Made by a program: the position numbers and the translations under genes
Shown: positions 15,841-29,006 of the stretch, piece by piece
Layout of the letters: each line of letters starts with the position of its first letter
Numbering within the stretch: the stretch's first letter is position 1
Notes under the pieces: model-generated
The model's database searches: none
Told to the model about the DNA's origin: nothing
Seen by the model: only the letters and a program-made list of their open reading frames with translations
Source of the DNA: Terriglobia bacterium
GTDB lineage: Bacteria > Acidobacteriota > Terriglobia > UBA7540
Assembly (NCBI GenBank): GCA_020073545.1
Contig: JAIQEZ010000042.1
Location: 1-35,850 of the forward strand
DNA: 35,850 bases
Direction of reading: 5' to 3'

Positions 15841-15864
15841 CTGCGACCCAAGGAGAACGATGCC

Positions 15865-16470
15865 ATGACAGAAGTCCTCAAGCTCGGCCAGAAAGTGCCC
15901 GACTTCGAACTCACGACTTACGAACCGACCCGGCAGGATTTCGGCAAGTTCAGCCTGCAGGAGCAGATCGACAAGAAGCGCTGGACGGTTCTTTTCTTCT
16001 ATCCCGCCGATTTCACCTTCGTCTGAGCGACCGAATTCGCTGCTCTGGCAGAGCAGCAGGAGCGGTTGGTGAAGATGGGATGCGACGTGGTCACGGTCAG
16101 CACCGATACCCAGTTCGTGCATCTGGCGTGGCAGCGCAGCGAGAAGGAGCTGGCCCAGGTCCGGTACCCCATGGGAGCCGATCCCACGGGCAAGGTGGCT
16201 CGGCTGTTCGGCGTTTATGATGAGGCCACCGGGCTGGCTCTGCGCGGCACCTTCATCATCAACCCGCAAGGCGTGCTGATAAATTCGGAGGTGAGCTACT
16301 ACAACCTTGGGCGGAACATCGACGAGTTGGTGCGCAAGTTCAAAGCCAACCTCTACATGTCGAAGAAGACGAATGAGGTGTGCCCGTCAAAGTGGAAGGA
16401 CGAGGGCGACAAGACGCTGACACCCTCCGCCGCCATGGTCGGCCGGGTGCACGAGGCTCTGGGGAGCTGA
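15865..16470 (+). CDS. selenocysteine-containing 2-Cys peroxiredoxin (AhpC/Prx1 type), in-frame TGA at codon 54
   Basis: A thiol/selenol peroxidase that would reduce H2O2 and organic peroxides in the cytosol. The frame from the ATG at 15865 (AAGGAG at 15850-15855) runs to a TGA at 16024-16026, then continues open in the same frame to 16470, 201 residues in all. The TGA sits exactly at the peroxidatic cysteine of the P-x3-T-x2-C motif (FYPADFTFV, then TGA, then ATEF). The rest is an intact typical 2-Cys peroxiredoxin: the downstream catalytic-core Arg in LALRGTFIINP, and a resolving Cys173 in EVCPSKW. A hairpin fitting a bacterial SECIS follows the TGA. I therefore read residue 54 as selenocysteine. 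Gene callers will truncate it to 53 residues or begin at an internal ATG (16066). Alternative: a Cys-to-stop mutation or base error. Confidence 0.88.
16024..16057 (+). promoter_or_regulatory. bacterial SECIS-like recoding element (UGA plus hairpin)
   Basis: The TGA (16024-16026) is followed by a perfect 8-bp stem, GCTGCTCT (16039-16046) with AGAGCAGC (16050-16057), closing a 3-base GGC loop at 16047-16049. Twenty bases separate the TGA from the loop. Known bacterial SECIS elements have a small apical loop with a G among its first two bases about 16-37 bases after the UGA, and all of this is met. The stem also encodes part of the protein. Confidence 0.75.
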
Positions 16471-20518: not shown

Positions 20519-20535
20519 AGCGCATGTGAGCTACT

Positions 20536-20946
20536 ATGGATGCGCAGGTTGAGCTTTTTCAGGCCCTCGGCGATGCCACGCGTTTGCGGTTGGTGAACCT
20601 GCTGACGCAGACCGGCGAGATTTGTGTTTGCGAACTGGTAGACGCGCTCGAGCTTCCACAGTACAACGTCTCGCGGCACCTGCAAATTCTCCTCAAGGCG
20701 GGTTGGCTGGAAGACCGCAAGGTGGGGAAGTGGGTTTACTACCGCGTGGCGCGGGATCTGAAACCCTATCACCGTTCCTTGCTGCGGGCTGTCGATCAAC
20801 TGCGCGAAGAGCGCGAGGACTTTCGCCGGGACGAGCAGCGAGCCAGCCGCCGCCTGAAGTTGCGCCGCGGCGGCGTGTGCTGCGTAGGGCTCGTTTCCAT
20901 CAGCGAGGGTGGGCACACCGCCCAGCGGCCGGGTACCGCAGGGTGA
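20536..20946 (+). CDS. arsR: ArsR/SmtB-family arsenic-responsive repressor
   Basis: A 136-residue winged-helix repressor expected to release its operator when it binds As(III). The metalloid site C30-V-C32 lies in the ICVCEL motif at the start of the recognition region, matching the CVC site of ArsR. The DNA-recognition helix is LPQYNVSRHLQILLKAGWL and the wing is DRKVGKWVYYRV. A C-terminal extension contains a vicinal Cys pair in RRGGVCCVGL that may provide a further ligand. It heads the arsenic island directly behind a near-consensus promoter with a possible overlapping operator; arsM follows 71 bases downstream. Confidence 0.92.
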   Translation: MDAQVELFQALGDATRLRLVNLLTQTGEICVCELVDALELPQYNVSRHLQILLKAGWLEDRKVGKWVYYRVARDLKPYHRSLLRAVDQLREEREDFRRDEQRASRRLKLRRGGVCCVGLVSISEGGHTAQRPGTAG

Positions 20947-21017
20947 TGCCGGGCGAGCGATGCCTGGCCTCATACCGACGGTGCGTGGCGGAAATCATTC
21001 TGAAAGGAAAAAAGACA

Positions 21018-21794
21018 ATGCCACAAGAACCACAGGGAACGGATTCCGAGACGATCAAGAAAGCTGTAGAGAGACATTACGCGGCCATCGCGCGGGGGGA
21101 AATCAAGAGTTGTTGCGACACGGCGAAGGCGGCGCCGGAGAACCTTTACAACATCGCCACCCAAACGCCCGGTTACAACGCCCAAGAACGGGCGGCACTG
21201 CCCGCGGGCGCGGACCTGGGACTGGGCTGCGGCGACCCGACGGCGGACGCGGACTTGGCGCCCGGCCAGACGGTGCTCGACCTCGGAAGCGGGGCCGGCG
21301 TGGACTGCTTCCTGGCGGCGCGTCGCGTCGGTCCAATGGGCCAGGTCATCGGTGTGGACATGACCGACGCCATGCTCGAAAAGGCGCGTGCCAATGCCGA
21401 GCGCGGCGGTTTTACGAACGTCGAGTTCCGCAAGGGCGAAATCGAAAACCTCCCCGTGGAATCGGGCACGGTGGACCGCATCATCTCGAACTGCGTCATC
21501 AATCTGGCGCCGAACAAGGCTCGGGTCTTTGCGGAAGCCTTTCGCGTGCTGAAGCCGGGAGGCCAGATCTCGGTTTCCGACATCGTTTCCTTCGGCGACG
21601 TGCCCGCCTCGATCCGCACGGACCTCGAACAATGGGCGGGCTGCGTGGCGGGAGCTCTCGACCGGGAGGAATATCTCCGGGTGATACGCCGCGCGGGTTT
21701 CAGTTCGGTGAGCGTCCTCAAGGATGTGGCTTACGACTACCTGCGCGGACGGGACTACGGCTTCGCCAGCGTTACGGTACGCGCGGTGAAATGA
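21018..21794 (+). CDS. arsM: arsenite S-adenosylmethionine methyltransferase
   Basis: A 258-residue enzyme that methylates As(III) stepwise to mono-, di- and trimethyl forms, which can leave the cell as gas or be exported. The SAM motif VLDLGSGAGVDC begins at residue 86. The three arsenic-binding cysteines of the family are all present: Cys71 in GLGCGDP, Cys159 in SNCVINL, and Cys209 in WAGCVAG; a vicinal pair Cys32-Cys33 lies near the N-terminus. The ATG at 21018 follows AAAGGA (21003-21008). The frame is open far upstream but overlaps arsR there. Same transcription unit as arsR. Confidence 0.93.
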   Translation: MPQEPQGTDSETIKKAVERHYAAIARGEIKSCCDTAKAAPENLYNIATQTPGYNAQERAALPAGADLGLGCGDPTADADLAPGQTVLDLGSGAGVDCFLAARRVGPMGQVIGVDMTDAMLEKARANAERGGFTNVEFRKGEIENLPVESGTVDRIISNCVINLAPNKARVFAEAFRVLKPGGQISVSDIVSFGDVPASIRTDLEQWAGCVAGALDREEYLRVIRRAGFSSVSVLKDVAYDYLRGRDYGFASVTVRAVK

Positions 21795-21801
21795 GGGGAA
21801 T

Positions 21802-21819
21802 CCAAGCCTGACGGCTTGG
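21802..21819. terminator. 7-bp hairpin after arsM
   Basis: CCAAGCC (21802-21808) and GGCTTGG (21813-21819) enclose TGAC, seven bases after the arsM stop. No T-run follows, so it may attenuate rather than terminate transcription into the lipoyl-protein block. Confidence 0.4.
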
Positions 21820-28699: not shown

Positions 28700-28937
28700 C
28701 TCCCAAAGAGCCGCCGCGTGAGGGGGCTCTCGGCCAGCGGAAGCTGTGTGTTCGTCCCTCGCCGTGAGTCGGTCCCGCCGCGACGGGCTGGGTGATGAGA
28801 ACACCGAGACCCAAACGTTCGTCCAACTCGCGAACCAGAATCAGACCACCATCCGAGGTGACCCGCGATCCCTGGAAATCGATCCTCAGAGAAGCGTTGA
28901 AGGAGAGCTGAAAGGGCTGGTTTTGCTTCTCACGCAT
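28700..28937 (-). pseudogene. IS1380-family transposase remnant (N-terminal part, frameshifted)
   Basis: Read on the minus strand from an ATG at 28937, the first ~45 residues match the IS1380 transposase start (FQLSFNASLRIDFQGSRVTS, then DGGLILVRELDERLGL). The frame then shifts by about 28790, where another frame continues the family pattern with TDSRRGTNTQLPLAE. Beyond about 28700 no resemblance is seen, and the remaining ~400 residues of a full enzyme are absent. It is a decayed insertion sequence fragment abutting the left end of the IS110-family element. Confidence 0.65.
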
Positions 28938-29006
28938 TATAAGGGGGCGCCCCTTTGGAGTAAGGTTTGAGCGCTGTCTCACTTCGCCCAGAAAGGAGCG
29001 CCCTCG

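Follow-up and report, generated by a model that had tools for sequence, protein, structure and literature searches.

A predicted selenocysteine-containing peroxiredoxin of the AhpC type in a Terriglobia bacterium

Peroxiredoxins with selenocysteine (Sec) are already known, and the gene described here adds a member. PrxU of Eubacterium acidaminophilum is a selenocysteine peroxiredoxin (Sohling et al. 2001, as cited in PMC9312934 and PMC13188914). A 2006 survey found 12 Sec-Prx proteins with the motif TxxU (PMC1794560), and in Blastococcus saxobsidens UAG serves as the Sec codon of an AhpC (PMC5330540). The original prediction, which assigned this locus to a known group as a new member, agrees with all four sources. 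A literature search, in which most subscription papers were out of reach, produced no paper describing the Sec-AhpC clade or the superoxide reductase-linked cluster presented below.

The stretch of DNA analysed, hereafter the window, is 35,850 nucleotides long and lies within contig C31 of a 5.28 Mb parent assembly (95.5% complete, 261 contigs). The gene product, P0001, was scanned against the NCBIfam models with Cys substituted for Sec. The best model was TIGR03137 AhpC (E 4e-55), followed by NF040737 PrxU (E 3.6e-52). P0001 fell short of both equivalog cut-offs, scoring 186.4 bits for AhpC (cut-off 272) and 177.4 bits for PrxU (cut-off 270). P0001 and PrxU belong to one superfamily, and in both the peroxidatic residue of PxxxTxxU is Sec. 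P0001 nevertheless lies outside that curated family as defined, and its clade covers Acidobacteriota plus about nine further phyla. AhpC provides both the best-scoring family and the best relatives of solved structure (PDB 1yf1, 4o5r, 5b8a). The match extends to both catalytic positions and to the C-terminal EVCPxxW region; P0001 differs by having Sec for the peroxidatic Cys, and no AhpF gene adjoins its gene in the window. The Sec-Prx and AhpC proteins of the two surveys (PMC1794560, PMC5330540) are likewise peroxiredoxin selenoproteins from bacteria and have a bacterial SECIS element. Compared with them by description rather than by sequence, the present gene uses UGA, and its SECIS sequence is nearly frozen.

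The TGA-containing frame and its homologues

The gene and its functional sites are as follows.

15865-16470, + strand: coding sequence of the Sec-AhpC peroxiredoxin, 201 residues; the final TGA (16468-16470) is an ordinary stop
16024-16026, + strand: TGA codon of the predicted selenocysteine 54, the peroxidatic residue, placed by the frame, the AhpC alignment and the homologue codons
16381-16383, + strand: TGC codon of resolving cysteine 173, Cys in 100% of 83 aligned homologues
15850-15855, + strand: likely ribosome-binding site AAGGAG, 9 nt 5' of the ATG, read from the sequence

The frame translates as M...PADFTFV-U-ATEF...EVCPSKW...LGS-stop, and the TGA at codon 54 is its sole internal stop. 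The product matches the PF00578 (AhpC-TSA) profile above cut-off (E 3.2e-36) and its alignment to solved AhpC chains is unbroken (1yf1, E 6e-48), with relatives of solved structure covering nearly the full chain. In these alignments codon 54 pairs with the peroxidatic Cys (FFYPADFTFVC) and Cys173 with the resolving Cys (EVCP). The sequence therefore has the features of a typical 2-Cys peroxiredoxin of the AhpC/Prx1 type, namely the AhpC-TSA domain, the PxxxTxxC motif with TGA at its Cys, and a resolving Cys in the C-terminal region. The original prediction had placed an in-frame TGA at the peroxidatic Cys of an otherwise intact frame with Cys173 retained, and both points held. It had also expected standard gene callers to misannotate the gene; under table 11 the longest ORF in the same frame after the TGA indeed begins at an internal TTG (16066).

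GTDB genomes, when scanned, gave 80 loci; 60 related genomes were searched as well and contributed two carriers in the window's family. Among 83 homologues with at least 60% identity, codon 54 was TGA in 69 and TGC or TGT in 14. An in-frame TGA at a position equivalent to Cys is one mark of a bacterial selenoprotein. The parent genome is a 261-contig assembly, in which a sequencing or assembly error could stand for a true TGC or TGT. Yet 68 other homologues, from different assemblies, have TGA at this same codon, and the SECIS hairpin described below lies downstream in TGA forms and is absent from Cys forms. We consider a read error, which the original prediction had named as something to be checked, to be exceedingly improbable.

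Selection was examined on either side of the TGA by comparing the window's gene with its relatives. dN/dS was 0.05-0.11 3' of the TGA, similar to the 0.09-0.14 found 5' of it. The outlier, 0.56 before the TGA for homologue L028, comes from an ungapped comparison that begins out of register. Purifying selection acts on the protein beyond the TGA, a pattern that a decaying gene would lack. The claim that downstream conservation argues against decay is thus sustained. A nonsense mutation in a decaying Cys-type AhpC would fit the one in-frame stop and the patchy occurrence of the gene in its family, but it sits poorly with the low dN/dS, the conserved length, the invariant resolving Cys and the conserved in-frame hairpin behind the TGA. 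We regard a pseudogene as very improbable. These comparisons confirmed 15865-16470 as a genuine, if predicted, selenoprotein gene, a product of neither decay nor sequencing error.

Sec decoding machinery and the SECIS hairpin

The parent genome was searched for the Sec machinery one family at a time. tRNA-Sec scored 69.1 bits, above the gathering score, with anticodon tca by ARAGORN. SelA (571 bits), SelB (359 bits) and SelD (388 bits) were also found, the last with its own in-frame TGA (VKAAGUAAKLS). With selA, selB, selC and selD all present, the genome has the equipment expected for a bacterial selenoprotein, and the organism is Sec-decoding in its gene content, as had been predicted. TGA doubles as an ordinary stop here, terminating both the peroxiredoxin gene and its upstream neighbour; Sec insertion therefore needs a local directing signal. 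The same double use bears on general codon reassignment, in which TGA would be read as another amino acid and not as SECIS-directed Sec. TGA is known to encode Trp or Gly in some bacteria. Here, however, it ends two adjacent genes, it is the terminator in 22/83 homologues, all non-TGA homologues have the catalytic Cys at codon 54, and the complete Sec machinery is encoded. Reassignment is accordingly given very little credence.

Two further loci in this genome were observed in passing. The SelD gene (G000:C19:23220-24146; L018, L144) is itself likely to encode a selenoprotein, with a strong hairpin 3' of its TGA (-19.0 kcal/mol in 48 nt). A second likely selenoprotein, G000:C32:13794-14171 (L142, minus strand), is Prx-like; it carries the motif FTGGUTKE, and its N-terminus is signal-like. 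Many genomes of the window's family have Prx-like homologues that contain an in-frame TGA.

A candidate for the local signal lies directly 3' of the peroxiredoxin TGA, where a SECIS is expected in a bacterial selenoprotein gene.

16039-16057, + strand: SECIS hairpin, stem G-CTGCTCT / AGAGCAG-C, apical loop GGC at 16047-16049, invariant core 16040-16056

All TGA forms carry the hairpin CTGCTCT-G[G/T]C-AGAGCAG 12-13 nt 3' of the TGA; homologue L084 differs in the lowest pairs. For the 48 nt from the window's TGA the predicted fold was -23.9 kcal/mol (z -3.6). Codons 59-64 read GCT GCT CTG GCA GAG CAG in 100% of the TGA forms that retain the residue. The columns flanking these six codons use two to six codons each in TGA forms, and in Cys forms most of the same six columns use two to five. 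Synonymous sites outside the hairpin approach saturation (dS 0.7-2.3); the hairpin's identity therefore reflects constraint and not recent spread. Stem covariation comes down to a single compensatory pair (L084), and with a stem so nearly invariant it can hardly be assessed. When the 17-mer core, with one base left free, was used as a query, it occurred in 10/396 genomes of the phylum, one copy each, and in these 10 genomes every occurrence sat in the Sec-AhpC gene, 13 nt after its TGA. The reversed pattern, used as a control, had zero occurrences in the 396 genomes.

From the intact frame, the conserved TGA, the hairpin, the machinery and the purifying selection, we infer that Sec is incorporated into the peroxiredoxin. 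We are close to certain that the gene encodes a predicted Sec-containing typical 2-Cys peroxiredoxin of the AhpC/Prx1 type, a likely peroxide scavenger whose UGA 54 would be decoded by way of the SECIS.

Distribution of Sec and Cys forms

The hairpin, the breadth of the clade and the patchy distribution extend the analysis beyond the original prediction. TGA forms span about ten phyla: Acidobacteriota, Rokuibacteriota, Methylomirabilota, Binatota, 'Deltaproteobacteria'/Myxococcota, Thermodesulfobacteriota (Geobacteraceae), Nitrospirota, Planctomycetota, Krumholzibacteriota and Bipolaricaulota. These labels are names given to metagenome bins and were taken from record titles. The same DNA occurs in a genome of the window's family (G035) and in an Acidobacteria bin (L023), which points to Acidobacteriota as the phylum of the window. 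No match to the gene was found among viral contigs, and its relatives in plasmid records were all under 60% identity. SelA was above cut-off in 34/36 TGA-form genomes, with a fragment in one more; it was present in 9/14 Cys-form genomes. The one TGA-form genome in which no SelA was seen, G463, is a metagenome bin, and the absence is most simply a gap in the bin.

The tree requires at least five Sec/Cys changes. Aquificota sequences form a single Cys clade. Two Nitrospirota Cys forms (L066, L070) are nested within a Sec clade; they retain the peptide ATEFAALAEQ while its codons are free, a combination that suggests reversion from Sec to Cys. A distant AhpC-type homologue in the window's own family (L107, G024:C242; 37% identity) also has TGA at the peroxidatic codon and probably represents another Sec-Prx clade.

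Within the window's family the gene is carried by 3/39 genomes and is dispensable, since 36/39 genomes do without it. In a genome of the same genus, G006, both flanking genes are present with a different 257-residue ORF between them, by eye a candidate TSUP/TauE-type membrane protein, and no peroxiredoxin remnant was found between the flanking genes. Given the few carriers and this other gene at the same place, the peroxiredoxin gene is often lost or exchanged. Eight same-genus genomes are without the gene, and the contig was accordingly considered as a contaminant. This was ruled out, as the flanking O-acetylhomoserine-sulfhydrylase-type gene has 79-87% DNA identity to same-genus genomes.

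Gene neighbourhood and predicted role

The peroxiredoxin gene is flanked in the window by genes for a Cys/Met-metabolism PLP enzyme (PF01053) and an aldo/keto reductase; stress genes and a reductase gene to serve it are absent from its side there. Genes that recur beside it in the Nitrospirota relatives encode a superoxide reductase of the desulfoferrodoxin type, a flavodiiron protein, rubrerythrin and a regulator of the Fur family. In the Aquificota Cys form a thioredoxin-reductase-like flavoprotein gene directly adjoins on the 3' side. The Nitrospirota and Aquificota neighbours support a role in peroxide removal or defence.

Two other parts of the window were recorded. A stretch of ~150-200 bp at 28736-28940 is an interspersed repeat: copies with 74-94% identity are present on several further contigs of the parent genome as well as in other genomes from the family. 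At 20524-21808 an ArsR-like regulator is followed, by eye, by an arsenite-methyltransferase-like protein; frame 20909-21808 as submitted had no match in Pfam and is probably the wrong frame.

The predicted Sec-peroxiredoxin likely scavenges peroxide. During translation the SECIS hairpin, 12-13 nt past the UGA, would recruit SelB and Sec-tRNA-Sec, and UGA 54 would then be decoded as selenocysteine. If AhpC biochemistry applies, the Sec54 selenolate would attack H2O2 or an organic hydroperoxide and so become a selenenic acid. This would condense with Cys173 (by homology, the one in the partner subunit), forming a selenenyl-sulfide, which a thioredoxin- or AhpF-like system would reduce.

We see about an even chance that these genes make up a distinct, so far unmodelled Sec-AhpC family of about ten phyla. 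In that family the SECIS would be nearly frozen as CTGCTCTG[G/T]CAGAGCAG, with synonymous sites held despite near-saturation elsewhere; the 17-mer would serve as a DNA barcode, and the Nitrospirota members would be part of a stress cluster with superoxide reductase, flavodiiron protein and rubrerythrin.

Standard gene callers would overlook or split a Sec-AhpC gene. The nearly invariant SECIS offers a clean natural data set for the requirements of SelB, and the repeated Sec/Cys switches on the tree permit testing when selenium use is abandoned. The host perhaps lives at low or fluctuating oxygen. A selenium-based peroxide defence is indicated in Acidobacteriota and in many uncultured phyla.
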